Shown: positions 1 to 54,600 of the stretch, piece after piece
Layout: each line of letters begins with the position of its first letter
Numbering within the stretch: the stretch's first letter is position 1
Assembly (NCBI RefSeq): GCF_001543895.1
Contig: NZ_JYIJ01000014.1
Location: forward strand, 124,001 to 188,000
Source: Carbonactinospora thermoautotrophica
GTDB taxonomy: Bacteria; Actinomycetota; Actinomycetes; Streptomycetales; Carbonactinosporaceae
Direction of reading: 5' to 3'
DNA: 64,000 nt
The notes under the pieces: generated by a model
Seen by the model: the letters and a program-made list of their open reading frames with translations, nothing else
Told to the model about the DNA's origin: nothing
Database searches by the model: none
Position numbers and translations under genes: made by a program

Positions 1-1364
1 AGGACCTGCTCGTTCGGCCGCGCTGCGGCGGCCATCGCCGCTTGCGCCGCCAGCAGGACCGGTTCGTAGACGGGAGCGTATGGCGGCGCGTAGGACAGGT
101 CCGCGGCGAGGAGGTCGGTCAGGTCGAAGCCCGCCTGGAGCGCGATGGCGAGCGCATCGATCCGCTTGGCAACACCGTCGCCGGCGCCGACGAGTTGCGC
201 GCCGAGCAGCCGTCCGTCGCGCTGGTGGACCAGGCGAACGGAGACCGGACCGGTGTTCGGGTAGTACTTGGCGCGAGACCTGCCCTCCACATCGGTGGCG
301 ACCGCGGGCAATCCCTCGGCGAGGGCCTCGGTGAGAGTGAGTCCCGTCCGGGCGACGGCGAGGTCGAACACCTTCACCACCGCCGTGCCGACGATCCCGG
401 GGAACCGCGCATCCCCGCCCGCGGCGACGGTGCCGGCCACCCGCCCGGTCTTGTTGGCGGCCGGGCCGAGCGGCACGAACGCCGGGCGGCCGAGCACCCG
501 GTGGTACGGGGCGATGCAGTCGCCGACGGCGTACACATCCGGCAGCGACGTGCGCATTTGATCGTCGACGAGCAGCGCGCCGCCGGGGCCGGTCGCCGCG
601 CCCGCCGCGGCGGCGATGTCGGATCCGGGGCGCACGCCGACGGCCAGCACGATCACGTCCACCGCCAGCGACGACCCGTCGATGACCGCCTCCAGTTGGT
701 CGGCCGTGCGGCGTACCTCCTCCAGCCGCGCGCCGAGCCGCAGGTCCACCCCTTGGCGGCGTACCTCCTTCTCGACCAGCGCCGCTATGGGCGCGTCGAG
801 GTTCGGCATGACCTGCGACGTCATCTCGACCACGGTCACGGCCACGCCGCGTGCGGCGAGCGCCTCGGCCATCTCCAAGCCGATGTAACCGGCGCCGACC
901 ACCAGGGCACGGCCGATTCGCCCGGCGTCGAGGAGGCTGCGCAGGCTGATCGCGTCCTCCAACGCCCGGACGGTGAACACCCGCTGGTCGGAGAGCCCCG
1001 GCACGGGCGGGAGCGCGGGCACGCCTCCGGTCGCGACGACCAACCTGTGGTAGGACATGCGCGCTTCCCGGCCGTCCTCGACGTAGTAGACGACGTGCCG
1101 GTCCGGATCGAGCCGCGTGGCCCGCGCGTTCAGCTTCAAGTTGATCCGTCGGCGGTCGCGGAAGAATGCCGGCGGGTAGGCGACCAGGTCGTCCGCGGCG
1201 GTGACCAGGCCGCTCAGGTAGTACGGGATGCCGCACAGGCCGTACGCGGCGAACCCGCTGGCCTCCAGGACCACGATCTCCAGGGACGGGTCGACACGAC
1301 GCGCCGCGGATGCCGCCGACATCCCCGCCGCGCCGCCGCCGACGACGACCAATCGGTGCCTCAC
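1..1364 (-). CDS. FAD/NAD(P)H-dependent disulfide reductase, CoA-disulfide-reductase type (3' end outside window)
   Basis: Leftward gene running off the window after about 454 codons. The GTG start is chosen because GGAGG lies 8 bases upstream and the dinucleotide loop VVVGGGAAGM follows at once (residues 6-15). AYGLCGIPYYLSG places one redox cysteine at residue 44, the pattern of CoA-disulfide reductases and related NADH oxidases/persulfide reductases. It is not the CxxxxC pair of glutathione or lipoamide reductases. A second nucleotide loop (VVGAGYIGLEMA), the FAD motif VYAVGDC and the C-terminal SYAPPYAPVY dimerisation segment are all readable. Known family role: NAD(P)H-driven reduction of small disulfides or persulfides. 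It is divergent from the sulfonate cluster, with 165 bases between the starts, so reduction of a coenzyme M disulfide, persulfide or mixed disulfide is an attractive inference, not shown. A plain NADH oxidase is the alternative. Confidence 0.85.
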   Translation of the reverse strand, partial: MRHRLVVVGGGAAGMSAASAARRVDPSLEIVVLEASGFAAYGLCGIPYYLSGLVTAADDLVAYPPAFFRDRRRINLKLNARATRLDPDRHVVYYVEDGREARMSYHRLVVATGGVPALPPVPGLSDQRVFTVRALEDAISLRSLLDAGRIGRALVVGAGYIGLEMAEALAARGVAVTVVEMTSQVMPNLDAPIAALVEKEVRRQGVDLRLGARLEEVRRTADQLEAVIDGSSLAVDVIVLAVGVRPGSDIAAAAGAATGPGGALLVDDQMRTSLPDVYAVGDCIAPYHRVLGRPAFVPLGPAANKTGRVAGTVAAGGDARFPGIVGTAVVKVFDLAVARTGLTLTEALAEGLPAVATDVEGRSRAKYYPNTGPVSVRLVHQRDGRLLGAQLVGAGDGVAKRIDALAIALQAGFDLTDLLAADLSYAPPYAPVYEPVLLAAQAAMAAAARPNEQV

Positions 1365-1529: not shown

Positions 1530-2303
1530 GTGTGGGACTGTCCGGACTTCCTCGCGCTACCCGACCGCGCGCAAAAGCCGCGTCGCCATGGGATCACCCA
1601 CGTCCTCGACAAGGGCACGACGACCGCGGAGCTGGAGGCTCTGCTTGCGCAGGTGGGGCATCTTGTGGACGTGCTCAAGATCGGGTGGGGCATCGCGTAC
1701 ATCGACCCGACGATCAAAGAGCGCGTCGCGCTGTGCCACGCGGCCGGCGTCACGGTCTGCCTCGGTGGGACGCTGCTCGAGGTGGCCGTGTGCCAGGGCC
1801 GCGAGGCTGAGCTGCGGCGCTGGGCGGTCGAGATCGGCATCACCGCGGTCGAGGTGTCCAACGGCTTGCGCGCGATGACTGCTGAGTGGAAAACCGAGCT
1901 GATCCGTTCCCTGGCCGCGGACTTCACGGTGCTCGCGGAGACCGGAGCCAAGGACGGCAACGCCCCCGTGGTGACCGGGCACTGGCTGGCTGAGATGGAA
2001 GCGGACCTCGCCGCCGGGGCCACCTGGGTGATCGCCGAAGGGCGGGAGAGCGGGACGGTCGGGCTGTACCACGAGGACGGGACGGTGCGCGCTGATCTGG
2101 TGGAAGCCGTCGCGGCCCGGCTGCCGATCGACCGGGTGATCTTCGAGGCGCCGCGCAAGGCCCAGCAGGCGTGGTTCGTACGGCGGTTCGGGGCGGACGT
2201 GAACCTCGGCAACGTGCCGCTCGACGAGGTCATCCCCTTGGAGACCCTGCGCCTGGGCCTGCGGGCCGACACCGCTGTGGTGCCGATGGGAGCGCAAGCA
2301 TGA
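1530..2303 (+). CDS. comA: Phosphosulfolactate synthase (ComA family)
   Basis: Predicted 257 aa TIM-barrel enzyme that adds sulfite to phosphoenolpyruvate to give phosphosulfolactate, the entry step of coenzyme M and other C3-sulfonate synthesis. Family hallmarks readable in order: DVLKIGWGIAYIDPTIKE, the GVTVCLGGTLLEVA strand-loop, EVSNGLRAM, LAETGAKDG, and the late EGRESGTVG and VIFEAPRK segments. The reading frame is open further upstream to 1449, but GTG 1530 is preferred: GTGGAGG lies just ahead and the protein then begins WDCPDFLALP, normal length for the family. First gene of a rightward run. Its TGA overlaps the next ATG (ATGA), implying translational coupling. The family is also found in bacteria with no proven coenzyme M, so the final product is inferred from the neighbours. 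Confidence 0.88.
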   Translation: MWDCPDFLALPDRAQKPRRHGITHVLDKGTTTAELEALLAQVGHLVDVLKIGWGIAYIDPTIKERVALCHAAGVTVCLGGTLLEVAVCQGREAELRRWAVEIGITAVEVSNGLRAMTAEWKTELIRSLAADFTVLAETGAKDGNAPVVTGHWLAEMEADLAAGATWVIAEGRESGTVGLYHEDGTVRADLVEAVAARLPIDRVIFEAPRKAQQAWFVRRFGADVNLGNVPLDEVIPLETLRLGLRADTAVVPMGAQA

Positions 2304-3202
2304 TCCCCGATCCTGATCCCAACACGATCGCCCGCCCCTACCGTGGGCTGTCGGTGCAGGAGGTGGACGTCCCGCTGACCGAGGTGGACCTCGTCTCGTT
2401 CCTGCTCGGCCGCGAGGTGTACCGGCGCACCGACTACCTCGTGCTGCGCAACGGCGAGCAGGCCGCGCTGGTGACGGTGCGCAAGGCGTCCGACGAGCCG
2501 CTGTTCTCGCCCGTCGTGGAGGCGCGCGTGCTGGCCGGCCCGGATGAGTTGGCGTTCATCGGCTCGCCCGAGACCGACGTGGGCAACGCCACTGCGCTGG
2601 CCCGGGTGGCGCTCCGGCACGCCAGGCCGGGCGTGCGCGCGTACGTGGTGCAGGGCCGCTACGAGCACGTGAACTTCATCTGGGAACCGGCGCCGGTGCG
2701 GATCCGGGTCACCGAGGTGGTGCCGCCCGAGCCGCCGAAGCTGTTCGCGATGGCCGAACAGGTCGTCGCCTTCGACGAGGACCTGCCGCCGATCGAGCTG
2801 GTCGCGGATGTCGTCGACATCCGGGCGCTCGCGGCGGCGCACCCGGCCGAGACGTACCTCCTGCCGTGCCGCGGCTCGGGCGTGGACCTGGGCGGGGAGG
2901 TCGCGTTCCTCGACACGCGCCCCGCCGAGCGGCGGGACTGGCTGATGGTCGGGTGCGAACGGTCACTGCAGTTCCACCGCCACTTCTACGGCGATGAGCC
3001 GCCGCGGGTCGACATCTGCCCGCGCCGGACGCGTCCGCTCGACGACGGGCTGACGCTGGCCAAATGCTGCCTGCTGGAACGCGGCGTCGAGTTCGAAGGC
3101 AGCGCGGCGGTGGTGCCGTGGGGTTCCAACCTGGACGAGATCCGCCGGGCCCTGCGTTGGCTCACCGGGGTCGACACGCACGATGAGGCCGCTGTCGGGT
3201 GA
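2300..3202 (+). CDS. Conserved-looking protein of unknown function in the sulfonate cluster
   Basis: 300 aa; the start ATG overlaps the comA stop by four bases. I do not recognise a family. There is no signal peptide and no clear membrane segment. It looks cytosolic and two-domain: an N-terminal half with YLVLRNGEQAALVTVRKAS and YVVQGRYEHVNFIWEP, and a C-terminal half rich in Cys, His and Arg (LPCRGSGVDLGG, MVGCERSLQFHRHFYG, VDICPRRT, LAKCCLLERG). The cysteine/histidine-rich second half could bind a metal or carry sulfur, but this is inference from composition. Strict coupling to comA and close packing with the downstream lyase make a role in the same pathway likely. Confidence 0.75.
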   Translation: MIPDPDPNTIARPYRGLSVQEVDVPLTEVDLVSFLLGREVYRRTDYLVLRNGEQAALVTVRKASDEPLFSPVVEARVLAGPDELAFIGSPETDVGNATALARVALRHARPGVRAYVVQGRYEHVNFIWEPAPVRIRVTEVVPPEPPKLFAMAEQVVAFDEDLPPIELVADVVDIRALAAAHPAETYLLPCRGSGVDLGGEVAFLDTRPAERRDWLMVGCERSLQFHRHFYGDEPPRVDICPRRTRPLDDGLTLAKCCLLERGVEFEGSAAVVPWGSNLDEIRRALRWLTGVDTHDEAAVG

Positions 3203-3224
3203 GGTCGGATGAGGAGGAGGCCCG

Positions 3225-4583
3225 GTGAGCGCGCATCTGGTCGACTCGATCCTCTACGGCCACCTCTGGGGGACCCCGGAGATCCGTCGCCTGTTCGACG
3301 ATGAGGGGCGCGTGCAGTCCTGGCTGGACATCCTCGCCGCGCTCGCGCAGGCCCAGGCCGAAGTCGGGCTCGTGCCCGACGACGCGGCGCGGGCCATTCG
3401 GGACCACGCCGATGTGAGGTTGCTCGACCTTGAGCGTGTCGCGGCCGAGACCCGCGCCACCGGGCACTCGACCCTCGGCCTGATCCGCTGCCTGCGGGAC
3501 GTGCTACCCGAGGCGGCGCGTGAGTGGGTGTACTACGGCGCCACCGTCCAGGACATCTCGGACACCTGGACCGCGCTCGTCATGCGCGAGGTCGCGGACA
3601 TCGTCGACCGCGACCTGGCTCGTGCGGAGGCGGCGGCGCTCGCTTTGGCCGAGCGGCATCGCGACACCGTCATGTGCGGCCGCACCCATGGGCAGCCAGG
3701 GCTGCCGGTCACGTTCGGGTTCAAGGCGGCTGTGTGGGCGTCTGAACTGCGCCGGCACCGCGAACGGCTGGCCGAGGGCCGCCCCCGTTGGGAGGTGGCG
3801 CAGCTTGGCGGAGCGTTGGGAACGATGGAGTTCTGGGGTGAGGCGGCGTTGCCGCTGCTGGAGGCGTTCGCCCGGCGCCTCGGGTTGGCCGCCCCGGACA
3901 TTCCGTGGATCACCGCCCGGGACCGGGTCGCGGAGTTCGTCAACCTGCTGGCCATGGTCACGGCGACGATCGCGAAGATCGGCCAGGAGGTGTACGAGCT
4001 GCAGCGCCCCGAAATCGCCGAGCTGGCGGAACCGTTCACCGCCGGGCAGGTGGGCAGCATCACCATGCCGCACAAGCGCAACCCGGAGTTGTCCGAGCAC
4101 CTGGTCACGCTGGCGCGGCTGGTGCGGGCGGACGCGACGGTGACCGTGGAAGGCATGATCGCCGAACACGAGCGCGATGGGCGGGCCTGGAAGGCCGAAT
4201 GGGTGGCTGTTCCCGAGGCGTGCCTGTACACCGGCGCCGCGCTGGCGCTGGCCTGTCGCTTGCTGGAGGGACTGGACGTCGACGCGGCCCGGATGCGGGC
4301 GAACCTGGACGCCCGTGGCGGATATGTTTTGTCCGAGCCGGTGATGCGCGTGCTGGCCGACCGCGTCGGTAAGCACACCGCGCACCAGATCGTGTACGAG
4401 GCGGCGCTCGCCGGACGGGAGCGCGGGGTCGACCTGGGCACGGCGCTGCTCGCCGACCCCCGCATCGCGGAACGTCTCACGCCCGAGGAGATCGCCCGCT
4501 GCCTCGATCCGCACGCCGCTCTCGGAGCTGCTCCGGCGTTCGTCGACCGGGTCCTGGCCACTATCCGCGGGGTCCGACGATGA
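3225..4583 (+). CDS. Aspartase/fumarase-superfamily lyase (candidate phosphosulfolactate phosphate-lyase)
   Basis: 452 aa, GTG start preceded by a GAGGAGGAGG tract. The superfamily signature GSITMPHKRNP is at residues 277-287 (the mobile loop with the catalytic serine). GRTHGQ (152-157) supplies the usual catalytic His region, and GATVQD (105-110) the first conserved region. The overall pattern is nearest to the carboxymuconate cycloisomerase/adenylosuccinate-lyase side of the superfamily. These enzymes abstract a proton next to a carboxylate and expel a beta leaving group. In the bacterial coenzyme M pathway a member eliminates phosphate from phosphosulfolactate to form sulfoacrylate. The position two genes after comA supports that job here. 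No purine genes are nearby, which argues against PurB. The stop overlaps the next start (ATGA). Confidence 0.82.
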   Translation: MSAHLVDSILYGHLWGTPEIRRLFDDEGRVQSWLDILAALAQAQAEVGLVPDDAARAIRDHADVRLLDLERVAAETRATGHSTLGLIRCLRDVLPEAAREWVYYGATVQDISDTWTALVMREVADIVDRDLARAEAAALALAERHRDTVMCGRTHGQPGLPVTFGFKAAVWASELRRHRERLAEGRPRWEVAQLGGALGTMEFWGEAALPLLEAFARRLGLAAPDIPWITARDRVAEFVNLLAMVTATIAKIGQEVYELQRPEIAELAEPFTAGQVGSITMPHKRNPELSEHLVTLARLVRADATVTVEGMIAEHERDGRAWKAEWVAVPEACLYTGAALALACRLLEGLDVDAARMRANLDARGGYVLSEPVMRVLADRVGKHTAHQIVYEAALAGRERGVDLGTALLADPRIAERLTPEEIARCLDPHAALGAAPAFVDRVLATIRGVRR

Positions 4584-5557
4584 ACGGTCTGCTGACCCTG
4601 CCTCGCGTGTCGTTGGCGGTCACGCCGACGCCGCTGCAGCCGGCGCCGCGCCTGTCGGAGGAGCTGGGCGTGGAGGTTTGGCTCAAGCGTGACGACCTGA
4701 CCGGCTTGGGCCTCGGCGGCAACAAGACGCGGGGCCTGGAGTACCTCCTGGCCGAGGCCATCGCCCAGGGCTGCGACTGCCTGGTGACCGGCGCCGGTCC
4801 GCAGTCGAACTGGGCGATGCTCGCGGCGCTCGCCGCCCGTCGCTGCGGGCTGGACCCCTATCTGGTCTTCTACGGTTCGCCCGTGCCGGTCACGGGGAAC
4901 CTGTTGCTGGACCAGATGGTGGGGGCCGATGTCCGCTTCACCGGCGACCCCGACCGCGCCTCGGTCGACGTGGCGATCCAGACGCTTGCCGATGAGCTGC
5001 GGGCGGCCGGACGGCGGCCGTACGTCTTGCCGCGCGGGGGCGCGACGGCGCTCGGCGCGGTGGGCTACGTGCGCGCCAGCCTGGAGCTGGCCGAGCAGTT
5101 GCTCGCCGCCGGGTTGACGCCGTCGCGGTTGTGGCTCGCCACCGGCTCATGCGGCACCCAAGCCGGCCTGGTGGCCGGGGCGCGCTGGTTGCGGGCGCCC
5201 TACCAGGTGGTCGGGGTGACGGTGAGCCGCCCGGCTGAGGAGTGCGTTGCCCGGGTCTTGGACCTCGCGGGGGCCGTCGCCGAGCTGCTGGACCTGCCCG
5301 GCGCCGACGTGCGCGGCGACGTGACCGTGCTGGGCGGCTATCTCGGGCCGGGGTACGGGCGCCGCTCGCCGGAAGGGGAGGCCGCGGCCCAGCTGGTCGC
5401 CCGCACCGAGGGCGTCTTCCTGGACCCGGTGTTCTCGGCCAAGGCCATGGCCTGCCTGATCGACGCGGCCCGCGCCGGCGGTCTCGCCGGACCGGTCGTG
5501 TTCCTGGTGACCGGCGGCGCCCCGACCCTGTTCAACGCCGTGAAGTCGGCGCTGTGA
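4580..5557 (+). CDS. PLP-dependent enzyme, D-cysteine desulfhydrase / ACC deaminase fold
   Basis: 325 aa, fold-type II PLP enzyme. The cofactor lysine is in GLGGNKTRGLEYL (Lys49), preceded by the family-typical VWLKRDDLTG. The phosphate-binding region LATGSCGTQAGLVAG and a C-terminal FLVTGGAPTLFN are present. Family members cleave D-cysteine to sulfide or open aminocyclopropane carboxylate. Within a comA cluster, the bacterial coenzyme M route uses a PLP-family enzyme for a late carbon-sulfur step, so handling of a cysteine-derived sulfur with a sulfonate acceptor is the inferred role. Coupled to the upstream lyase by an ATGA overlap. Its 3' end carries a 14-base tandem duplication spanning the stop codon (5540-5567). 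Substrate cannot be read from sequence. Confidence 0.83.
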   Translation: MNGLLTLPRVSLAVTPTPLQPAPRLSEELGVEVWLKRDDLTGLGLGGNKTRGLEYLLAEAIAQGCDCLVTGAGPQSNWAMLAALAARRCGLDPYLVFYGSPVPVTGNLLLDQMVGADVRFTGDPDRASVDVAIQTLADELRAAGRRPYVLPRGGATALGAVGYVRASLELAEQLLAAGLTPSRLWLATGSCGTQAGLVAGARWLRAPYQVVGVTVSRPAEECVARVLDLAGAVAELLDLPGADVRGDVTVLGGYLGPGYGRRSPEGEAAAQLVARTEGVFLDPVFSAKAMACLIDAARAGGLAGPVVFLVTGGAPTLFNAVKSAL

Positions 5558-5581
5558 AGTCGGCGCTGTGAAGGAGGCGAC

Positions 5582-7087
5582 GTGACCCGGCCCGTCCCGG
5601 AAGGGTACCTGGGTGCTGAGGCCAGGATCAGCAGTGGCCCGGCCCCCGAGCTGGTCGAGGCCGGCTACGCCGTGGAGCTGGCCGACGCCCCGCTCCTGCA
5701 CCACGGCCTCACCCTGGCGGACCTCGCCCACGTCCTCGCGTTGCGGGAGGCCGGCGTGATCCCCGAGCGGGAGGCGGCGATCCTGCTGGCGACCCTGCTC
5801 GAGGTGCTGGACACCCCGGCGGAGGCGTTCCCGTACGACCCGACGTACGGCGACGCCTACAACAGCCGGGAGCGGGAGCTGGAACGCCGGCTGGGTGGTG
5901 TCGCGGGCTGGCTGCACACGGGCCGCACCCGGCGGGAGGCGGGCCGGATCGCCTTCCGGCTGGCGCTGCGCGACCGGTTGCTCGATCTGCATGAGGCGGT
6001 CACCCGGTTCGTCGCCGCCGTGGCCGGGCAGGCGCGGGCGCACGCGTCCACGGTGTGGGCGGACACCACGTACCTGCAGCCGGCGCAGCCCTCGACGTTC
6101 GGCCACTACCTGGGCGGATTCGGTGAGGAGGCGATCCGGCACCTGGAGCGCCTGGAGGCCGCCTACCGGTGGGCGGACCGGTCCCCGGCGGGTGTGGGCG
6201 GGGTGGGCGGCACCCGGGTGCCGCTTGACCGGGCGCGGCTCGCCGACCTGCTCGGCTTCGCCGCCCCGGGCGCGCATACCCGCGACTCGATGTGGGCGGT
6301 GGACGGACTCGCCGAGGCCGTGATGGCGGCGGCGCTGGCCGCGACCACGGTCGACCGGCTCGCCGAGGACCTGGAGATCTTCACCAGCCCCGGGTTCGGC
6401 TACGTGACCCTGGACGCGTCGCTGTGCCGGGCGTCGGTGTTGCTGCCGCAAAAGCGCAACCCCTACGCCCTCGCGGTGATCCGCGCCGGCGCGAGCACGC
6501 TGATCGGCAGGGTGACGGGTCTTTTGGCCACGCAGCGCACCCCGTCCGCCCGGACGGACAACTGGTTGCACGCCTACGGCGAGGTGGCGGGCGCCCTCGA
6601 CCTGGCCCGTCGGGTCGTCGCGCTCGGGGCCGAGGTGGTGCGGACGCTGGAGGTGGACCGCGAGAGGTTGGCCGCCACAGCCGGCACCCACTTCACCGGC
6701 GCGACTGACCTGGCTGAAGAGCTGGTGCTGCGGCACGGACTGGACTACCGGTCCGCTTATCGCACGGTGGGCCGTGCCGTGGCCGCCGCGGTCGACGCCG
6801 GGCAGGCGTCCCTGACCGCCCTCGACCTGGAGCGCGCCGCCGCCGAGGTGTTGGGCCGTCACCTGTCCGTGGACCCGCAGACGGTGCGGGAGGCGCTCGA
6901 CCCGGCGCGCACCGCCATGGCCCGCGCCGCGCTCGGCGGCAGTGCCCCGGAACGGGTCCGGGAGCACTGCCGTGCCCTGAGGCGCCGCGAGGCGGCGGCC
7001 ACCCGGTGGCGGGAGAATCGGCGGGTCGCCGCCCGGGCGGCCGAAGAGCGGCTCATCGCCGCCGCCCGGGCGCTGACCGGTTCTTGA
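5582..7087 (+). CDS. Argininosuccinate-lyase-like member of the aspartase/fumarase superfamily, divergent
   Basis: 501 aa, GTG start with AAGGAGG six bases upstream. Layout is that of argininosuccinate lyase: YNSRERELERRL region, TYLQPAQPSTF (163-173), DSMWAVDGLAEA, and the loop signature ASVLLPQKRNP (284-294, ArgH usually SSLMPQKKNP). One key residue differs. ArgH enzymes read THLQxAQP with a catalytic histidine; here the histidine position is tyrosine (TTYLQPAQP). So it is unlikely to be a genuine ArgH, and there are no arginine genes around. Together with the first lyase it gives the two-lyase-plus-PLP enzyme set described for bacterial coenzyme M synthesis. The step it performs (possibly decarboxylation or sulfur transfer) is not decidable from sequence. 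Confidence 0.82.
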   Translation: MTRPVPEGYLGAEARISSGPAPELVEAGYAVELADAPLLHHGLTLADLAHVLALREAGVIPEREAAILLATLLEVLDTPAEAFPYDPTYGDAYNSRERELERRLGGVAGWLHTGRTRREAGRIAFRLALRDRLLDLHEAVTRFVAAVAGQARAHASTVWADTTYLQPAQPSTFGHYLGGFGEEAIRHLERLEAAYRWADRSPAGVGGVGGTRVPLDRARLADLLGFAAPGAHTRDSMWAVDGLAEAVMAAALAATTVDRLAEDLEIFTSPGFGYVTLDASLCRASVLLPQKRNPYALAVIRAGASTLIGRVTGLLATQRTPSARTDNWLHAYGEVAGALDLARRVVALGAEVVRTLEVDRERLAATAGTHFTGATDLAEELVLRHGLDYRSAYRTVGRAVAAAVDAGQASLTALDLERAAAEVLGRHLSVDPQTVREALDPARTAMARAALGGSAPERVREHCRALRRREAAATRWRENRRVAARAAEERLIAAARALTGS

Positions 7088-7472: not shown

Positions 7473-8882
7473 ATGAGTGACGTGGCCGACAGCGTGAAGC
7501 AGGAGGTAACGGAGATCGTGGCCCGCGCCAGGGCGGCGCAGGAGGCGATCGCCGATTACACCCAGGAACAGACCGATGACCTGTGCGCTGCGGTGGCCTG
7601 GGCGGTGGCCCGCACCGACCGCGCGGAAGCCCTGGCCAAGCTCGCGGTGGACGAGGGCGGCTTCGGCAACTACGCCGACAAGGTGACCAAGATCAAGAAG
7701 CGTGTGCTCGGCGCGCTGGCCGACATGCGCGACGTCCGCACGGTGGGTGTGGTGGAGGAGGACCCGGCACGCGGCCTGGTGAAAATCGCCAAGCCGGTCG
7801 GCGTCGTCGCCGCCCTCATCCCGACCACCGGCCCGGACGCCACCCCGCCGCTCAAGGCGCTGTTCGCGCTCAAGGGGCGCAACGCCATCGTGGTGGCGCC
7901 GCACCCGCGGACTGCCGAGACCACGGCCGCGGTCGTGGAGTACATGCGCGAGGCCTGCGTGCGGGTCGGCGCGCCCGCCGATCTGGTGCAGGTGCTGTCG
8001 CGTCCGTCGATCGCCAAGACCCAGGAGCTGATGCGCCAGGCCGACCTGGTCGTCGCCACCGGCGGCGCGGCGATGGTCAAGGCCGCCTACAGCTCGGGCA
8101 CCCCCGCGTACGGTGTGGGCGTCGGCAACTCGGTGCACGTGGTCGACGAGACCGCCGATCTTGATGACGCCGCCACCGCCATCGCCGACGCGAAGACCTT
8201 CGACTACGCGACGAGCTGTCTTGCCGACAACGCCATCGTGGTCGAGGCGAGCGTCTATGAGGACTTGCTGGAGCGCCTCGTGGCCCGCGGCGCCCACCGG
8301 TGTGACGCGAAGGAGAAGGCCGCCCTACAGCGGTGCATGTGGCCGGACGGCCGGCACGTGCCGTCAGCCGACGTCATCGCCAAGCCGGCCACCACGATCG
8401 CCCAGCTCGCCGGCTTCACGATCGCCCCCGACCGGACGTTCCTCGTCGTCGAGGAGGACGGCGTCGGACCCGATCACCCGTTCTCGGGCGAGAAGCTGTC
8501 GGTCGTGCTGGCCGCCTACCGGTACACCGGCGGGATCGAGCGAGCCGTCGAGCTGGTCAACGCCATCACCAGCTACCAGGGCCTCGGGCACACCTGCGGC
8601 ATCCACACCCGCCGCGACGACCACGTGGACGCGCTGGCCTTCGGCACCCGGACCGCACGGGTGATGGTCAACCAGAACCTCAACGAGGGGGCCGGGAGCC
8701 CGCGCAACGGCCTGCCGTTCACGCTCAGCCTGAGCTGCGGCACCTGGGGCGGCAACATCACCACGGAGAACGTCAACGCGCGTCATTTCGTGAACCTCAC
8801 GTGGGTCTCGCGTCCCATCGAGCCGCATCCGGTCAGTGAAGAGGAGCTGTTCGCGCGGTACTGGGCGCGGTACGGGCGGTGA
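7473..8882 (+). CDS. sauS: CoA-acylating aldehyde dehydrogenase, sulfoacetaldehyde dehydrogenase (SauS)-like
   Basis: 469 aa, aldehyde dehydrogenase superfamily, CoA-acylating branch. The conserved VAALIPTTGPDATPPLKALF (113-132) is typical of the EutE/AdhE/SauS group. The catalytic cysteine is Cys249 in KTFDYATSCLADNA, and the nucleotide-binding VVATGGAAMVKAAYSSG follows the family. Among characterised members it looks most like SauS, which converts sulfoacetaldehyde, CoA and NAD(P)+ to sulfoacetyl-CoA. Acetaldehyde or another C2/C3 aldehyde remains possible. Start ATG 7473 is chosen because the N-terminus MSDVADSVKQEVTEIV then begins the family helix; the frame is open upstream but not protein-like. 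The ribosome site is weak, so leaderless or short-leader transcription is possible. Context beside comA favours a sulfonated aldehyde or a coenzyme M-linked aldehyde. Confidence 0.8.
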   Translation: MSDVADSVKQEVTEIVARARAAQEAIADYTQEQTDDLCAAVAWAVARTDRAEALAKLAVDEGGFGNYADKVTKIKKRVLGALADMRDVRTVGVVEEDPARGLVKIAKPVGVVAALIPTTGPDATPPLKALFALKGRNAIVVAPHPRTAETTAAVVEYMREACVRVGAPADLVQVLSRPSIAKTQELMRQADLVVATGGAAMVKAAYSSGTPAYGVGVGNSVHVVDETADLDDAATAIADAKTFDYATSCLADNAIVVEASVYEDLLERLVARGAHRCDAKEKAALQRCMWPDGRHVPSADVIAKPATTIAQLAGFTIAPDRTFLVVEEDGVGPDHPFSGEKLSVVLAAYRYTGGIERAVELVNAITSYQGLGHTCGIHTRRDDHVDALAFGTRTARVMVNQNLNEGAGSPRNGLPFTLSLSCGTWGGNITTENVNARHFVNLTWVSRPIEPHPVSEEELFARYWARYGR

Positions 8883-8885
8883 GCG

Positions 8886-10583
8886 TCAGGAGCGCAGCGC
8901 GTGCAGGGTGCGCCACGCCCGGGTGGCGAGCTGCAGGTTGAAGCGGGTGTCCGGATCCGCGAGATCGTGGCCTGAGATTTCGCGGATCCGCTGCAGCCGG
9001 TACTTGAGCGTGCTGCGGTGCACCGCCAGCGCCGCCGCCGTCGCATCGTAGTTGCCCCCGGACTCCAGGTACTGGCTCAGGGTCGTGACCAGCTCCGAGT
9101 GCTTGCGCTCGTCGTAGTCCAGGAGCGCCCCAAGCCACTGGCGCACGAACCGCTCCACCGCCGCCGGGTCGTTCACCTCGCCCAGGATCCGGTACACGCC
9201 CAGGTCCTCGTAGCTGATGGCCCGGTCGTTGCCGCGCGCGGTGCGCTGCATCTTGAGCGCGAGCAGTGCCTCCCGGTACGAGCGGGGGAACTCCGCAGGC
9301 CGGTCGCACGGGCCGCCGATGCCGAGCCGGCAACGACCGCCGCCGAGTTCGGTCAGCACCGCCGTGCGGAACCGTTCCCACGGCACGTCGGTGTCGGACA
9401 GCACGACGACCGTGTCGCCGCGGGCGACGAGGAGCGAGCCGACACCCGTCGTGCGTGCCGCACGCCGGACCGCGTGGAAGAACACGTCGCGGTCCTGGAT
9501 GCGGGCACGTCCCTCGACGACGATGACCCGGTGCCGGCGTTCCAGGTCGTAGCCGAGGGCGTGGGCCCGGGCGAGCGCGCTCTCCTCGTCGGTGCCGGAC
9601 AGCAGCTCCTCGACCAGGTCACGACGGAGCCGCAACTCGGTCTCGGCCATGCTCCGCAGGCGGGCGAGTTCCATCGCGAGCACCGTCGCGCCGTACTCCA
9701 GGGCGATCTGCTCCTGCTCCCCGGCCGCTCGCGCGGGATCCACCAGGGCCAGCACGCCGAGCACGTCGTCGCGCGGGTTGGCGACGGCCAGCAGGCGTCC
9801 GCCTTCGCGGATCGGCCGCCCTTCACGCAGGGCACGCCGCATCATCTGCTCGCGTCGGGCCGGCGGATCCTTCGGGTACGGTTCGGGTCGGTTCGGACCC
9901 GCCCATGCCCGCAGGTTGCCGTAGCGGTCCTCGACGGCGACCGGGAAACCGGTCAGCTCATGCAGGGCCGTCGCGATCCCTTCCTGGCCTTCCCCGGCGA
10001 CCACCACCCGGGTGAACCGGTCGTGGATCCGGATGGCGCGCTCCAGGGCTCGGACCGTCTCCGCCAGGGCGGCGTTGGCCGCGCGCAGCTCCTCGGCCGT
10101 CGCCCGTTCCTTCGCGTGCAGGCGGGCGTTGGCCAAAGCGACGCCCGCCTGCTGGGCGAGCGCCTGCAGCAGGAACTGCTCGGCCGGCGGCGGCTCGTCG
10201 TCGGCGGCGACGACCAGGTAGCCGAGATCCCCTGCCAGGCTGCGCAGCGGCAGCGCCCACCCCCAGGCCTCGCCGGGGATGGTGACCTGCCCGCCGGTAC
10301 GGCCCAGGGTCTTGAGCTGCGCTTCCAGCGCGGCCCGCACTTCCGCACGGGTCGGCGACGGCACGGTCTCCTGCCACTGGCCGTCGACGAGGTACACGCC
10401 TTCGACGTGACAATGTCCGAAGGACGGCACCGAGGTCGTCGCCAGGTGCAGGATCTGCCGTTCGTCGCCGCTCGCGGTCATCAACATCGACAGCATGAGA
10501 AGGCCGCGCAGGCTGGAGAGCTGGTCGCGTAGCACCGTGTCGGAAGCAGGCGGCCAGTCGGCCGAAATCGCGAACGCACTCAT
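8886..10583 (-). CDS. PucR/CdaR-family transcriptional regulator with GAF domain
   Basis: 565 aa. The order is an N-terminal GAF-like sensory domain (about residues 40-170, ending QALAQQAGVALANARL), a coiled linker, a middle CdaR GGDEF-like domain (about 330-450), and a C-terminal PucR helix-turn-helix (YDATAAALAVHRSTLKYRLQ, about 510-530). Such regulators usually activate catabolic genes in response to a small ligand sensed by GAF. It lies 7 bases downstream of the MEDS gene on the same strand, so both are probably one transcript. It is convergent with the acylating dehydrogenase, with stops 3 bases apart. Control of the adjacent sulfonate/coenzyme M genes is inferred from position. Confidence 0.88.
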   Translation of the reverse strand: MSAFAISADWPPASDTVLRDQLSSLRGLLMLSMLMTASGDERQILHLATTSVPSFGHCHVEGVYLVDGQWQETVPSPTRAEVRAALEAQLKTLGRTGGQVTIPGEAWGWALPLRSLAGDLGYLVVAADDEPPPAEQFLLQALAQQAGVALANARLHAKERATAEELRAANAALAETVRALERAIRIHDRFTRVVVAGEGQEGIATALHELTGFPVAVEDRYGNLRAWAGPNRPEPYPKDPPARREQMMRRALREGRPIREGGRLLAVANPRDDVLGVLALVDPARAAGEQEQIALEYGATVLAMELARLRSMAETELRLRRDLVEELLSGTDEESALARAHALGYDLERRHRVIVVEGRARIQDRDVFFHAVRRAARTTGVGSLLVARGDTVVVLSDTDVPWERFRTAVLTELGGGRCRLGIGGPCDRPAEFPRSYREALLALKMQRTARGNDRAISYEDLGVYRILGEVNDPAAVERFVRQWLGALLDYDERKHSELVTTLSQYLESGGNYDATAAALAVHRSTLKYRLQRIREISGHDLADPDTRFNLQLATRAWRTLHALRS

Positions 10584-10590: not shown

Positions 10591-11199
10591 TCACTGTCTG
10601 ATCGCGAGGAACTCGTCCGGTTCGAGGTAGTAGGGGTTGTCGAACACTATGCCCCCGACCAGGACCTTCGGATGGGTCTTCAACACGTCCATGAGCACCG
10701 CGCCGCTGAACCGGTCAAGGTCGTAAAGGCACAGGATCACCTGCGGGTAACGCGGCAGGAACAGGTTGAGCTTCGACTCGTACCCGATCAGCTCGTCGAC
10801 CCCCGGCATCTGCCGCAGCGACCAGGTCATCTCTCCGACGGCGCGCGTGAAGCTGAAGCCGTGCGCGAGCGCGCCGCCGACCGCCTGGTCCCAGAAGTCC
10901 AGCATGAGAGGCGTGGAGAACCTGCCCTCGCGCAGGTACGTGTCGCTTGACCGCTGGACGTCGAGTTGCTGGCTGCTCAAATAAGGCCCGAGGTCGAGGT
11001 CGGCGGCGAGCGCCGTGAGCACCACCTCAGGGTCGGTGGCATCCACGACGCAGATGCACTTGTCGCCTCTTCGAAGCCCCTCACTGAGGTACGGGATCAG
11101 AATCTTGTCCCGTTCCGCCAAGCCGCGGTAGAACGCGCACAAATGATCACCCGGCGCGATCCGGACGCCGGGAATGCCGAGAGCTATCGAGTTGGGCAA
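10591..11199 (-). CDS. MEDS-domain sensory protein
   Basis: 202 aa, the length of a stand-alone MEDS (methanogen/methylotroph DcmR sensory) domain. Readable blocks: RIAPGDHLCAFYRGLAERDK, GLRRGDKCICVVDATDPEVV, the central HGFSFTRAVGEMTWSLRQ, LNLFLPRYPQVILCLYDL and the closing FDNPYYLEPDEFLA. The start is TTG 11199, seven bases after an AGAGGGGG tract; the frame is open further upstream but unlike protein. MEDS domains sense hydrocarbon or C1 derivatives in DcmR and otherwise accompany anti-sigma-like regulators. It precedes the PucR gene by 7 bases and may present the signal to it. No DNA-binding domain of its own is visible. Confidence 0.82.
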   Translation of the reverse strand: MPNSIALGIPGVRIAPGDHLCAFYRGLAERDKILIPYLSEGLRRGDKCICVVDATDPEVVLTALAADLDLGPYLSSQQLDVQRSSDTYLREGRFSTPLMLDFWDQAVGGALAHGFSFTRAVGEMTWSLRQMPGVDELIGYESKLNLFLPRYPQVILCLYDLDRFSGAVLMDVLKTHPKVLVGGIVFDNPYYLEPDEFLAIRQ

Positions 11200-11772
11200 T
11201 GTAGCCCCCTCTCTTCCGCCACTGATCGTAGGCAGATACGTGCGCTGTTCCTGCCCCTGTCGGGACAAACTCTCTTGCTGAAACCAGCCTGTGAGGACAG
11301 TTCCGGGTAGGCAGTGCGCGTGGTTCCCGCCATTCACCCCCCGTGCGTCTAGCCAGGGGCTACCCGCTGCTGGATGCTCAGCGAGCCGTAGGCGTCGTGC
11401 GTGGTCACGTCCGGCGGCCTCGTCGTCTTCGGCAGTGCCTGACCGCATATAATTGCCTAATTAGGCACTGCTTGCCTACCCCTGCGCGTCGCGACATCGC
11501 ACCCCGGATACCGGGAGTTCGTGTTCGTCGGCGCACGCTGGCCCACGCGGCGGGCGGCTTGCTGGCCGGCCGGCACACCGGCCAGACGGTTCTCCCCCAG
11601 CGCTCGCCGTGGCGGTCGGGGAGTGTTCTCACCCCGCCGCTGTTCGGCAGCCGTGGACAAGGCCGGCGGTCCGGGCCGTGGAAGTGTGTTTCTTGGAGTC
11701 CAGCCTGCGTGCGTCAGCGTCCGTCACCGCCGGGGTGGCGGCTGAACCGCCTCGGGTTTCGTGGCGGCGGGG
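11200..11772. other. Intergenic stretch without a convincing gene
   Basis: 573 bases between the MEDS start and the IS3 remnant. No reading frame here looks like protein. It contains a TATAAT/palindrome element (listed separately, 11432-11471) and presumably the promoter for the leftward MEDS-PucR pair. Nothing else was recognised. Confidence 0.5.
11432..11471. promoter_or_regulatory. TATAAT box nested in inverted repeats (candidate promoter/operator)
   Basis: A perfect TATAAT is at 11448-11453. It is followed by the 14-base perfect palindrome TGCCTAATTAGGCA (11454-11467). Both sit inside longer arms GCAGTGCCT (11432-11440) and AGGCACTGC (11463-11471). In such GC-rich DNA this AT-rich symmetrical element stands out as a regulator-controlled promoter. 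No gene is evident immediately downstream on the plus strand; the MEDS gene lies about 230 bases away on the minus strand. Confidence 0.45.
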
Positions 11773-12717: not shown

Positions 12718-13362
12718 TCACCGGTCACTCGGCGCGGTGACGGTCATGCGGATCGGGGTGGGATCGAAGCCGTTGCACGGGTCGTTGATCTGCGGGCAGT
12801 TGGAAACCAGCACCAGCACGTCGGTCTCCGCGCGCAGCGAGACCCGCAGCCCAGGGGCGGAGATCCCGTAGACGATGCCGAGGGTGCCGTCGGGCTCGAT
12901 GGGGACGTTCATGAACCAGTTGATGTTGCTGACCAGGTCACGCTTGCCCAGGCCCCAGCGGGCGCCCTCGATGAGGAAGTTCTCCACACACGCGTGCTGG
13001 TGCGCGGTGTGGTGCCCGTAGCGCAGGATGTTGGATTCTTTGCTGCACGCGCCACCCAGCGTGTCGTGGCGGCCGCAGGTGTCCTCGACGATCGTCATGA
13101 GCGGGCGGTACTCGTTGTCGCGCAGCACGCTGCCGGTGGTCAAGAAGACGTTCCCCTGGGCCTGGATGGTGTCTGCCGCGCTGTACCGGCGGGTGGTATC
13201 CGCGGCGTCGTAGAGCAGGAAGTCGACGGCCTGGTTGCCATGAAGGTCGACGATGGTGAGCACGTGTCCGCGGCGGACGATCGCAGACCACGGCGCGCGG
13301 GCGGGGACGATGTCGTCGCGGACGATCCGGCTGGTCGGGGTGAAGTCGGTCAGGGTGCTCAT
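12718..13362 (-). CDS. Urea carboxylase-associated protein 1 (UAAP1, DUF1989)
   Basis: 214 aa, the usual DUF1989 size. Typical blocks are VLTIVDLHGNQAVDFLLYDA, TIQAQGNVFLTTGSVLRDNE, EDTCGRHDTLGGACSKESN, YGHHTAHQHACVENFL and WFMNVPIEPDGTLGI. The conserved Cys/His set is consistent with a metal site. The family partners with urea/guanidine carboxylases; paired DUF1989 proteins form carboxyguanidine deiminase in guanidine breakdown. Its ATG overlaps the UAAP2 stop (ATGA), so the two subunits are made together. No urea or guanidine carboxylase or allophanate hydrolase lies in the window, so the exact role here is uncertain. Confidence 0.88.
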   Translation of the reverse strand: MSTLTDFTPTSRIVRDDIVPARAPWSAIVRRGHVLTIVDLHGNQAVDFLLYDAADTTRRYSAADTIQAQGNVFLTTGSVLRDNEYRPLMTIVEDTCGRHDTLGGACSKESNILRYGHHTAHQHACVENFLIEGARWGLGKRDLVSNINWFMNVPIEPDGTLGIVYGISAPGLRVSLRAETDVLVLVSNCPQINDPCNGFDPTPIRMTVTAPSDR

Positions 13363-14207
13363 GCGATCCCCCTCGCCTGGGCGTACTCGACGGTGTTGAG
13401 GAAGGCGCGCCGTCCTTCAGGGGTCGCCGACCACACCGGGTCACCCGGTCCGGTCGGCTCGTCCCGCCACGCCAGCACTTCCAGCGCCGAGCAGGTGTAG
13501 TTCGGCCGGGGGTCGAGCGGATGCGGGACGTTCGCGATCAGGACGATCAGGGGCAGCTCGGCGCGTAGCGTGACTGAGCGGCCGGCGCCGGCCGACCCGG
13601 TGAACCGCAGCCGGCCGTCGGGCTCGACGCGAACGCCCTTGAAGAAGGACAGGCTGGGCGGGATGTCCCGGGCGGACAGGCCGTGCTTGGCGGCGGCCAG
13701 GGTGAACAGCGGGCGGCCGGCGGGAGTGGGTCCATGGGGGCTGCCGTCGCCGTACCGCTCGGTGTTGCGCGTGAGTGTCGAGGTGCCGCACAGCGCGTCG
13801 TGGCGGGCTGAGGTGTCGGCGACGATGGAGGCGAGCACCCTGCCCTGGTCAGACAGCAGCAGGTGCCCCTCGCCCAGGTACGCCTGCCAGAGCACCTTCA
13901 CCGTGTCCGCCACGTTGAGCCGTTCCCACGGCTGGTCGGCGTTGTACAGCAGGACGTGCGCGCAGGCGTCACCGTGCACGTCCGTGAGCCGAAGGGTCGA
14001 ACCCCTTGCCAGGACCTTGTGCGTGTAGCCGCCGCCGGGGACGGTCTCCGCCCACACCAGGCTTCGGGGGTCGACGTCGGCCGGCGGTTCCGACCAGTCA
14101 CTGGCCGGCAGAACCGGCATCGCCTCGATGACGGCGTCATCTTCAGCCCCGGCGTACTCCCCGGCGCTGTAGGTCGTCGTGTTCGCGGATGTGGGGGTGG
14201 TCGGCAT
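13359..14207 (-). CDS. Urea carboxylase-associated protein 2 (UAAP2, DUF1989)
   Basis: 282 aa from ATG 14207. DUF1989 blocks: TLRLTDVHGDACAHVLLYNA, VLWQAYLGEGHLLLSDQGRV, VADTSARHDALCGTSTLT, PPSLSFFKGVRVEPDG and a C-terminal VPHPLDPRPNYTCSALEV. It has the longer N-terminal extension usual for the second subunit. The frame stays open upstream through a triplicated GAGAAGGACAGC motif, which I treat as leader because each copy carries a ribosome-site-like AAGGA. First of the coupled pair with UAAP1; expected to form a hetero-oligomeric amidine hydrolase (carboxyguanidine deiminase type), by family knowledge. Confidence 0.86.
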   Translation of the reverse strand: MPTTPTSANTTTYSAGEYAGAEDDAVIEAMPVLPASDWSEPPADVDPRSLVWAETVPGGGYTHKVLARGSTLRLTDVHGDACAHVLLYNADQPWERLNVADTVKVLWQAYLGEGHLLLSDQGRVLASIVADTSARHDALCGTSTLTRNTERYGDGSPHGPTPAGRPLFTLAAAKHGLSARDIPPSLSFFKGVRVEPDGRLRFTGSAGAGRSVTLRAELPLIVLIANVPHPLDPRPNYTCSALEVLAWRDEPTGPGDPVWSATPEGRRAFLNTVEYAQARGIA

Positions 14208-14213
14208 GGCTGC

Positions 14214-14252
14214 GCTGTCCTTCTCGCTGTCCTTCTCGACGCTGTCCTTCTC
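14214..14252 (-). repeat. Three copies of a 12-base motif with Shine-Dalgarno-like core, upstream of UAAP2
   Basis: On the minus strand GAGAAGGACAGC occurs at 14252-14241, 14237-14226 and 14225-14214, with three extra bases between the first two. Each copy contains AAGGA. The last ends 6 bases before the UAAP2 ATG. It may be a simple expansion or a multi-copy ribosome-landing leader. Confidence 0.6.
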
Positions 14253-14260
14253 GGGTAGGG

Positions 14261-14368
14261 TCAGTCGGCGACGGCCGGTACCGGTTCCTCGGCGTCGGTC
14301 GGTTCTCGGTAGCTGAAACAGGTCAGATCGTCGTCCACCAGGTGCCCGAGAGGCGCGGGTACGGACAT
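14261..14368 (-). CDS. 35-codon leader ORF upstream of UAAP2
   Basis: ATG 14368 preceded by CAGGAGG with 4 bases of spacing, one of the best ribosome sites in the region, and a TGA at 14261-14263. The peptide starts MSVPAPLGHLVDDDLTCFSY and ends with an acidic, proline-rich tail (PTDAEEPVPAVAD). It stops 53 bases before UAAP2. It could be a translated leader, a small subunit or a precursor peptide. No family recognised; the support is the ribosome site, the compact ORF and the operon position. Confidence 0.45.
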   Translation of the reverse strand: MSVPAPLGHLVDDDLTCFSYREPTDAEEPVPAVAD

Positions 14369-14603
14369 GGGGCCTCCTGTCGCCGGATGCGCGCAGGCCA
14401 GCGAGTTCATGTCGTATGACCGAAATTAAGTTCCGTGCGCAACCGCGGGATGTCCCGGCGGTCACGAGTGCGTTAGTGGGTCTTCACCGCCCGCTCTCCC
14501 GGCCTGTGAGCGTGCCAGGACCGGCACCGTGTCGCGGATCGCGTCAACCACTTCGGGGCAAGGACGAGATCTTCGCGCCCTGTTGGAGAGCACCGTCGCG
14601 GAG

Positions 14604-38400: not shown

Positions 38401-41400
38401 TCAGGTCCCGCTGTTCCTCTCGCGCCTCAGCCGCACCTCCTGCCTCCATGCGCACGCCTGCCTGCCCCGCTCGTCCCTTCTGCCGCAGCGCCAGAACCAG
38501 GGATAGTTCATCTTGCTCTCTTTGGAACGCCACAGCTCGACCTCGGGGTGACCGCAGTCGCCGCACCTGCCCGGCGGGGTGGAAAACGCCTCACCGTGCT
38601 CGTGCTCCAGCATCTTGGCGGCGAAGCGGTGGCCCTCGACGATGCACATGACCTCGCGGGTCGTGCTGTGGGACAGGATGTTGAGGCTGCCGAGTACCGT
38701 CACCCGCCGGTCGATGACGATCAGCTTCTGGTGCATGTCGCGGTACCTGATCACCCTGGGCACAGCCTGGCGCAGCGCGGCCAGCGCCTCCCGGAAGTCT
38801 TTTCTCTCCTGCATCTGCCGGTCGGTGGAGCCGCGGACGAAGACCCGGACGTCCACACCGCGCCGCACCGCGTCGCTCAACAGCGGCAGCACCTGGTGCG
38901 TCCGCTTCGCCGTCCACGGCGCCCACAGGTAGATCTCCTGCCGGGCCGCGCCGAGATACGCCTCCAGCGCGGCGTAGAACGTGCGTTCGTCGAGCACCTC
39001 CACGATCCGCACGTACTGGCTGAGCACGTCGGCCAGCTCCAGCGTGACTGGGTCGGGCTGGGCCGCTGGTTCCGCCCCGGCCGGGGCCAACAGCTCGGTG
39101 GCGGCCACCCGGCGGATCAGCCCTTCTCGCACCAGCTTGCGAACCGTGTGCAGCACAGTTCCGGACGGCGCGCGCCGGACGGCCTTTCCGCTACCGATGA
39201 GGTACAGGCGGTGCTTGGCCCGGGTGAGACCGACGTTGAACAACCGCGCGCCGTCACGCCGGTACCCGTTGGTGCTGTCCGCTCGCCCCTTGGCCACCCA
39301 TCCGGGGCGGCGGCCGTCTTCGACGAGGTCGAAGATCACCACGTCAAACTCGCAGCCCTGCGCGGAGTGGATCGTGAGGGCTTCCGCGTCGAGCGACGCG
39401 CGGACGTCCTCCACGTCGCGCAGTGCCTCCAGAGCGACCTCGACCTGGTATCGGTAGGGGGCCAGGATGGCCACGCTTTCGCCTCTGTCGCGGTGATGTT
39501 GCGCGAGGATTCGACCGAGCAGGCCCCCGGCGGGCCACCACCCGCTGTCCCGGCTGATCCGGCGGATGGTGCCCAGGTCGTCCAGCTTGTCGGTGTCCAG
39601 GAAGACGATCTCCGGGTCCGCCGGGTCCAGGGCGGGAAGTTCCCGGCCCGGTTGCAGCTCACCCGCGTACATGGCGCGGTTCGCCAGTTGCATGATGGCC
39701 GGGCCGAACCGGTACTGCCAGGTCAGAACGGCGCAGCCTGGGTGGTCCCGCGCATCCTGCGGGGTCCGGATGCCGCACACTTCGAAGCAGTCGCGGCCGA
39801 GCCAATCGCGCGCCCTAAGGTTATCGTCCTGCCGGAAATCACTCGCCGTGGGCGCGGGGAGTTGCAGGAAGTCACCGAGCAGTACGGCCGTCCTCTCAGC
39901 CTTGGCGACCGCGAGCAGTACCTCGGGAACGGTGGCAGCCCCCGCCTCGTCGACGAGCACGACGTCGAACTCGCGCGCGGCGATCGCCGGGTGGATCCGG
40001 GAGCGGGCCAGGGTGGCAGCCACGAGCTTCGCCTGCCCGATGATCTCCTTCTCCGCGTCCCGGCGCAGTCTCTCCAGCTTCTCGCCGAGTTCCCGGTATC
40101 TGGCCTCCAGCCGCTGGCGCTGGGGCTCCTCAGCCTTGACGTGCTGCCGTAACCGTTCCAACTCGGCGTGGCGCGTGGGGAAGTTGGCCTGCTCGGCCTC
40201 GGCGACCACGCGATGGTGCTCATCGGTGGCACGTGGCCCAGCCCGCATAGTCTCCAGCTTCCGGCGCAGGTCATCGCGCTGCCGCTCCAGCGCGGCGACC
40301 TCCCCCTTGGCTGTGTCCGCCCCGGCCCGGGCCTCGTCGAGCACTTTCTCCCGGCGTGCGATCTCGGCCTCGTCGATCGGCGCGGCACGTTGTAGGAGTT
40401 CGGGGATCCGGGCTTGCAGCAGTGGTCGTTGCCGCTCCAGTGCTTTTCGTGCCTCCTCGTACCGCCGGGCGGCTGCTTCCAGCTCGCGGTGCCTGGTGTC
40501 CCGCGTTTCCCGGGCGTTGCGCGCGGCGACGCGGTTCCGCAGGCGCGCCAGCAAGGGCTGGGATTCCAGTGCGCGGACTTTGGCCAATGCCTCCTGGTAC
40601 GCGCTGTCGGCCTGCATCAGCGCGAGCTCGCGTTTGCCGGCCTCGATCTCCAGCCCGTTGAGTTGCGCTCGCAGCTCGCCGGCTTCCGCGAGGTACTGGC
40701 GTGCTGGTGCGATCTCCTCCCACGCGGCTTCCGCACGGGCCAGCTCCCGATGCTTCGCTTCCGCGGTCATGCGGGCCTGCTCAAGCTCCGTGCCTAGCCG
40801 TTCCAGCCATGCGGTCGACTCGGCGATCTGTTGCTCCTGATCGATCAGGCGGCGAGCTGTCTCGTACGCGTGCGGGTCGTACCCGGCGAGCTCGTCCTCC
40901 AGCCGGCGCAGTTTCGCTACCGAGTCCTGGAGCACGGAGAGGCGCCGTTCGACCTCGTCCCGCTCCTCGGCCACTTTGCGTTGCCGGTCCTTGACGAGCA
41001 GGGGCAGGGAAACGGACGGGTTCTTCGCCACGTCGGGCAGGGCCGGTGGACCGACGCGGACGAGTTCGCCCGGTCCGAACTGCCCGCTCTTGACCACTTC
41101 GAGCAGAGCGTTGTCCACCGCCACGTTGGTGGGGGAAACGAGAAGCACCCGTGACCCCGCCTGGAGCAGGCTGGTGATCGCCAGGGCCAGGACCCTGGTC
41201 TTACCGGTGCCCGGCGGACCCCATACCAGGAAGAGCCCAGGCGTGTGGCAGGCGTCGTAGACCTGCCATTGGGCCGGGTTGAGCGTGCGATCACGGTCGG
41301 TCGGCAGCGGCGGCAGCGTGGTCAGCCGTCCGCGTGCGAGGTCATCGGCTTTTCCCGGATCGGTCAGGCCGCGTAACGCCTCCAGAAGACGTTGGATGAG

Positions 41401-41727: not shown

Positions 41728-41757
41728 TGCTCTTCCTCCCCCCGTACGCGGACGGGT

Positions 41758-42369: not shown

Positions 42370-42490
42370 GTCCCCCTGCCCATGTCCGGCCTTGATCGAC
42401 TACTGTGCCACAGGCCGCCCGGACCGTGGCCGGATTTCTGCCATGCGAAACCGCCCCTGATCGACTCGCGGCGGCGCTAGGTTTTACGCC

Positions 42491-45625: not shown

Positions 45626-45628
45626 GTG

Positions 45629-52619: not shown

Positions 52620-52647
52620 TCCTCGGCTCCGTCCCTCCTCTGGCGGC

Positions 52648-53946: not shown

Positions 53947-53961
53947 CTCGGCCCCCGTTCC

Positions 53962-54545: not shown

Positions 54546-54562
54546 TCGGCACGTCGGCCCTG

Positions 54563-54600
54563 ATGGGTGTGCGTGCCGTGTCGGGGGCACGCACACCCAT
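54563..54600. terminator. 15-bp hairpin between excalibur copy and unit 1
   Basis: ATGGGTGTGCGTGCC (54563-54577) pairs with GGCACGCACACCCAT (54586-54600), 8-base loop; CACGCACACCCATGCC then repeats once more at 54606-54621. It ends the excalibur transcript. Confidence 0.65.

Follow-up and report, generated by a model that had tools for sequence, protein, structure and literature searches.

We analyzed a 64,000-nucleotide stretch of contig 14 of Carbonactinospora thermoautotrophica (hereafter the window; C14:124001-188000), from a 5.13-Mb genome of 19 contigs that is 99% complete. At window positions 1530-7087 it carries five co-directional, tightly packed genes, xcbB/comA, xcbA, xcbD, xcbE, and xcbC, whose predicted products point to synthesis of coenzyme M (CoM), a small thiol with which alkene-eating bacteria capture toxic epoxides. 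A preliminary description of this DNA, made from the letters alone, had named a ComA, a first lyase, a pyridoxal phosphate (PLP) enzyme, and a second lyase, all of which we found where it placed them. Both ATGA overlaps that it reported were also located, at 2300-2303 (comA/xcbA) and 4580-4583 (xcbD/xcbE). The order it gave for these four genes holds, except that xcbA (2300-3202), lying between comA and the first lyase, had been overlooked.

The first gene, xcbB/comA (1530..2303, + strand), starts with GTG downstream of a GGAGG and encodes a phosphosulfolactate synthase (PF02679, 270 bits) that shares 64-67% identity with the ComA proteins of Nocardioides sp. JS614 and Mycolicibacterium chubuense NBB4 and has relatives with solved structures (1u83 and 1qwg). 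For the other four genes the top matches were the dedicated NCBIfam CoM models, which we calibrated by scoring them on the known cluster members of JS614, NBB4, and Xanthobacter autotrophicus Py2. XcbD (3225..4583, +), a member of the aspartase/fumarase superfamily that carries the NCBI product name 3-sulfopropionylcysteine synthase, reached 758.6 bits with NF052536, exceeding the cut-off of 600; its identity was 77% (pMYCCH.01) and 64% to the two NBB4 copies, 68% to JS614, and about 48% (47.5%) to Py2, and a search of plasmid proteins with XcbD returned NBB4, JS614, and Py2 as its first matches. The PLP enzyme XcbE (4580..5557, +; PF00291) has the D-cysteine desulfhydrase fold and the PLP lysine motif GGNKTR, found its best NCBIfam model in NF052537 (348 bits), and is 61-73% identical to the XcbE proteins of known clusters, with 73% to that of NBB4. 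XcbC (5582..7087, +), an ArgH-like lyase, scored about 427 bits (426.6) with NF052535 and is 78% identical to NBB4 XcbC. Taken as a set, the five proteins share 61-81% identity with the clusters of NBB4 (two plasmids) and JS614.

The overlooked gene, xcbA (2300..3202, +), encodes a 300-residue DUF7714 protein that scored 457 bits with NF052538 (cut-off 150) and 322 bits with the Pfam DUF7714 model, and that is 81% identical to NBB4 XcbA. Across 38 sequences, five cysteines (Cys190, 219, 240, 256, and 257) and two histidines (His123 and His226) are invariant, making a metal or Fe-S site plausible. An AlphaFold2 model, built from an alignment that left plasmid sequences out, had a pLDDT of 92.9, and a fold search with it against PDB structures gave no clear relative, with TM-scores to the query of at most 0.24 among the matches listed. 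An additional hypothetical gene of 308 residues, xcbF1, adjoins xcbB in vinyl chloride islands (PMC8727900), and we take it to be DUF7714, i.e., XcbA.

Trees placed the two lyases with the Xcb enzymes rather than with PurB and ArgH, the grouping that the preliminary description had proposed to look for as evidence against a CoM operon. In the XcbC and XcbD trees the window proteins group with Py2 Xcb, apart from E. coli ArgH and PurB and from the host's own ArgH-like and PurB-like proteins, with SH-aLRT values (Shimodaira-Hasegawa-like approximate likelihood ratio test) of 99-100 on the separating branches, though the outgroup branches are long in the case of XcbD. The XcbE tree, a weak test against desulfhydrases given that its sole outgroup is E. 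coli DcyD, puts the window protein beside XcbE of NBB4 and other clusters. The active-site signatures agree with these placements. Window XcbC has TYLQ and ASVLLPQKRNP, as Py2 XcbC has TYLQ and ASKILPQKRNP, against THLQ and GSSxMPQKKNP in ArgH, and thus departs from both parts of the THxQ/GSSxMPxKxNP pattern of ArgH/PurB. XcbD keeps THGQ but has GSITMPHKRNP, common to the window and Py2 proteins, with GSITMPHK in all members against GSSTMPHK in PurB. A second, broken XcbC-like copy lies at C18:680647-681658, with frame breaks and about 54% identity in its best part.

The proposal of a CoM operon is therefore supported by NCBIfam models, synteny, sequence identity, trees, and active-site signatures alike, and the same evidence supports reading the five genes as orthologues of those of the bacterial CoM pathway. 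Chance clustering of the five genes was ruled out by synteny, since the same gene order recurs in NBB4 (twice), in JS614, and in related loci; of the related loci of this class, 26 contain the full set of five, and in 15 of these the order is the same. The gene set is complete for CoM synthesis, and of a kind already known from degraders of ethene and vinyl chloride. From it we infer that the host makes CoM.

Consistent with the preliminary description, no epoxyalkane:coenzyme M transferase (EaCoMT) is present in the window. The statement that the user of the cofactor was unknown did not survive a search of the whole genome, the check that the same description had suggested, which recovered both an alkene-type monooxygenase and an EaCoMT; the user had seemed unknown because the window is too short to include EtnE. 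This EaCoMT (EtnE; C14:101211-102326) lies on the same contig, 21.7 kb before the window start, is 84% identical to JS614 EtnE, and keeps the HxC...C zinc ligands (HTCWGN and TTDCGL). Between it and the operon are an acetone-carboxylase-like set, a pair of CoA-transferases, an AMP ligase, and a thiolase, followed by an etn-island CoA ligase, CoA-transferases, and a short-chain dehydrogenase/reductase (SDR). Contig 13 carries an EtnABCD-like diiron monooxygenase that is alkene-type by sequence (C13:261881-265942; alpha subunit 58-65% identity), beside it three tandem EaCoMT-like genes (C13:268775-272543), one of them frame-disrupted. Genes for an SDR and a MEDS protein were found on this contig as well, together with one for a 2-ketopropyl-CoM carboxylase (2-KPCC; C13:278953-280506) with the motif CPHQACVPHH that is 74% identical to its JS614 homologue and 55% to Py2 XecC. 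A further EaCoMT homologue on contig 18 is 44% identical to Py2 XecA. Additional diiron monooxygenase sets were seen at C15:44129-47121 and C19:301262-307533, and some of these share about 47-49% identity with the alkene monooxygenase of Xanthobacter. Its gene content gives the host the look of a versatile hydrocarbon oxidizer.

The genes flanking the operon also have counterparts in the known clusters. Divergent from it, a CoA-disulfide-reductase-like flavoenzyme (3..1364, - strand), whose open reading frame extends past the window start, is 77% identical to the counterpart on NBB4 pMYCCH.01 and 59% to that of JS614; it scored 384 bits with TIGR03385, under the cut-off of 578.8, and has a lone active-site cysteine (YGLCGIPYYL). 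Its probable role is to maintain the thiols of CoM or CoA in reduced form, or else to act in epoxide-CoM breakdown. Assignment of this protein as the 2-KPCC was ruled out, as it has the single cysteine of the CoA-disulfide reductase type and lacks CPHxACVPHH, and the real 2-KPCC is the one on contig 13. Downstream, a SauS-like acylating aldehyde dehydrogenase (7473..8882, +; NF047625, 551 bits) is 77-86% identical to the aldehyde dehydrogenases of the NBB4 and JS614 clusters and probably oxidizes a CoM-linked aldehyde or sulfoacetaldehyde. It is followed by an EtnR1-like PucR-type regulator with a GAF-like N terminus (8886..10583, -; PF13556 and PF17853), 60-76% identical to the NBB4 and JS614 cluster regulators, and by an EtnR2-like MEDS-domain sensor (10591..11448, -; PF14417, 161 bits; true start probably near 11190), 54-68% identical to the MEDS proteins of the same clusters. 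The EtnR1 and EtnR2 regulators have been treated previously (PMC11507031).

To place the operon in a wider context, we surveyed 84,980 species, each represented by a single genome, and found 136 XcbA loci, of which 80 were kept and read. These fall into two sets, one with EtnE within reach and the other with no EaCoMT within 10 kb. Of the 50 related loci of this class, 29 have EtnE within reach. The former set extends to Acidimicrobiia, Methylococcales, and a Ktedonobacterales genome; the latter (L094-L097, L100, L101, L103-L105, L107-L110, L112-L114, L116, L117, L119, and L121-L123) is mostly from Pseudonocardia, with further members in Terrabacter, Nonomuraea, Chloroflexota, and Marinimicrobia. 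Whole-genome searches of the 22 EaCoMT-less genomes gave no EaCoMT match at an E value of 1e-20 in 13 and only distant MetE-like matches in 8 (at most 51% identity over short pieces and at most 41% over the full length), while one holds a true EtnE (79%). Recurrent neighbors in this set are an MSMEG_0572-family protein, an MSMEG_0567 GNAT protein, an MSMEG_0568 radical SAM protein, and an sll0787-like AIR synthase, as well as OsmC-like, AllG/AllH, and LarB/LarC/LarE proteins, the Lar genes occurring in Pseudonocardia. Nit1C, OsmC, and AllG genes were found in none of the surveyed loci with an EtnE of at least 65% identity.

Weighing this evidence, we consider it very likely that the operon makes CoM and that this CoM is used in EtnE-type epoxide capture, although several observations weigh against that conclusion. 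Complete operons occur without a nearby EaCoMT, so that the operon alone is no proof of an epoxide role; an acetone-carboxylase-like block parts EtnE from the operon, and the alkene-type monooxygenase lies on another contig than the operon. Several family scores also fall short: window ComA reached 224 bits with the equivalog model TIGR03849 (arch_ComA), whose cut-off is 280, XcbE and XcbC lie below the cut-offs of 450 (NF052537) and 575 (NF052535), and the SauS-like enzyme did not reach the 600 required by NF047625. For XcbC and XcbE, the calibration attributes the shortfall to a trait of the actinobacterial branch, because the known proteins of JS614 and NBB4 score lower still (332-399 for XcbC and 310-328 for XcbE), whereas those of Py2 pass (783 and 525, respectively).

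A different C2 or C3 sulfonate, such as sulfolactate, cysteate, or sulfoacetaldehyde, made for osmoprotection, spores, or sulfonate metabolism, would be compatible with the occurrence of a lone ComA in organisms that do not make CoM (Bacillus subtilis, our control, is an example), with the 284 bits that the window PLP protein scores with the cysteate sulfo-lyase CuyA, and with the SauS-like sulfoacetaldehyde dehydrogenase downstream. We nonetheless regard such a product as very improbable: XcbD lies above a CoM-specific cut-off, the XcbE model outscores CuyA, the next-best model, by 64 bits, the five-gene set co-occurs with EtnE and 2-KPCC, and the aldehyde dehydrogenase, to judge from its identity to cluster members, belongs to known etn islands. 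There is equally little chance, in our view, that CoM is made but serves the host mainly outside epoxide capture, for example as a thiol redox buffer or in a Nit1C-linked process. Other bacteria do have complete xcb operons without EaCoMT that neighbor Nit1C, OsmC, and Lar genes, and a Nit1C-like set does occur in the host on the operon's contig, but some 80 kb away, neither adjacent nor linked to the operon; moreover, the window operon falls in the EaCoMT-linked clade, and EtnE, 2-KPCC, and EtnR-like regulators are all present. Finally, a chance gathering of housekeeping paralogues of ArgH, PurB, and D-cysteine desulfhydrase is next to inconceivable despite identical superfamilies and an argH model score of 269 bits on the second lyase (cut-off 279.5), as the ArgH-like and PurB-like genes of the genome are found elsewhere, on contigs 12 and 19, respectively, and housekeeping paralogy of the lyases is ruled out by the trees and by signatures in which XcbC has TYLQ and AS(V/K)xLP in place of the catalytic THxQ and GSSxMP.

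If the operon serves epoxide capture in this host, the route from synthesis to use of CoM may be outlined as follows. CoM (2-mercaptoethanesulfonate) would be built from phosphoenolpyruvate and sulfite, with cysteine as the probable donor of the second sulfur, by a published scheme of five steps that reportedly includes a decarboxylation and a reduction. XcbB would join phosphoenolpyruvate and sulfite to give (R)-phosphosulfolactate, and XcbC would eliminate phosphate from it to yield sulfoacrylate, as described for phosphosulfolactate formation and phosphate elimination in two papers that summarize the primary work (PMC8727900, PMC11507031). XcbD would then add across the double bond of sulfoacrylate, giving, by its NCBI name, 3-sulfopropionylcysteine; XcbE may release the thiol, and another reaction, likely the decarboxylation or the reduction, may fall to XcbA. 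Epoxides produced by the diiron alkene monooxygenase would be taken up by CoM through EtnE, pass to an SDR dehydrogenase and then to 2-KPCC or a CoA-transferase/ligase branch, and so be carried into central metabolism, with the adjoining PucR and MEDS genes as likely epoxide-responsive regulators. Our own analysis shows gene content, orthology, synteny, catalytic signatures, and the presence of CoM users in the genome; the chemistry given for XcbB, XcbC, and XcbD is that of papers or database names, and the steps given to XcbE and XcbA, the regulation, and the natural alkene are deductions of ours.

The predicted pathway adds an actinomycete to the short list of bacteria for which CoM synthesis and the consumption of alkene epoxides (for example from ethene, propene, or vinyl chloride) are predicted. 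It is also isolated taxonomically: in a sample of 395 genomes from the class, XcbA occurred in 15, of which the host was the sole one from its order, and no other sampled genome of that order has the operon. XcbA/DUF7714, a protein without a clear relative of known fold, emerges as a constant component of CoM synthesis in bacteria. To our knowledge, EaCoMT is the only known bacterial user of CoM, and operons without it make further bacterial roles of CoM a testable question. We tentatively propose, as a possibility somewhat short of even, that the xcb operon is a portable CoM module with at least two bacterial uses: epoxide capture and a Nit1C-linked process that operates without EaCoMT. There are hints that the second use is tied to genes of the Nit1C family (MSMEG_0572, MSMEG_0568 radical SAM, GNAT, and AIR-synthase-like), to an OsmC-like protein and a flavoenzyme resembling CoA-disulfide reductase, and to LarB/LarC/LarE in Pseudonocardia. 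If true, a process so far undescribed, belonging to neither methane nor alkene metabolism, would depend on CoM; among the papers available to us, a search found none tying Nit1C to CoM.

Beyond the operon and its flanks, the window contains two DUF1989 proteins side by side (12718-14465), DISARM-like defense genes (38401-49576; DrmD 1353 bits and DrmMI 1694 bits) with a helicase/PLD protein on the opposite strand, and a module that pairs an S8 subtilase with a WXG100/PPE-like protein, present in three tandem copies (51336-62041) spaced by about 3.9 kb and up to 100% identical in parts.

Compared with known systems, the operon shares with the archaeal CoM pathway (ComA to ComE) its first step, ComA, but continues with lyases and a PLP enzyme where archaea employ ComB to ComE. 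The closer precedent is Xanthobacter autotrophicus Py2 (pXAUT01, CP000782), reportedly the organism in which the bacterial pathway was worked out, which has all five xcb genes, with XcbA upstream of xcbB, though in the order xcbA-B-C-D-E, at 37-54% identity, and with a monooxygenase of another group and a LysR regulator. In CP000782, the Py2 XcbA sequence (L017:16740-17584; 43-54% identity) is divided between two reading frames and has no entry in the annotation table. Nocardioides sp. JS614 (pNOCA01, NC_008697) resembles the host in operon order, EtnE, a 2-KPCC-like protein, the aldehyde dehydrogenase, and the PucR and MEDS genes; its EtnABCD-EtnE genes adjoin the CoA ligase, whereas in the host the acetone-carboxylase-like block and the thiolase intervene between EtnE and the ligase. 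Such CoM clusters have been described in vinyl chloride islands (PMC8727900) and in methanotrophs (PMC11507031). The NBB4 plasmid pMYCCH.01 (NC_018022) differs in being plasmid-borne with transposases around the cluster, in having its own monooxygenase inside the island where the Carbonactinospora host has it on another contig, in the extra genes that separate its xcbC from the aldehyde dehydrogenase gene, and in an xcbD that is in two pieces in the record. It nevertheless matches the host locus in the entire succession of CoA-transferases, SDR, flavoenzyme (- strand), comA, xcbA, xcbD, xcbE, xcbC, aldehyde dehydrogenase, PucR, and MEDS genes, with protein identities to the window genes of 67-86%.

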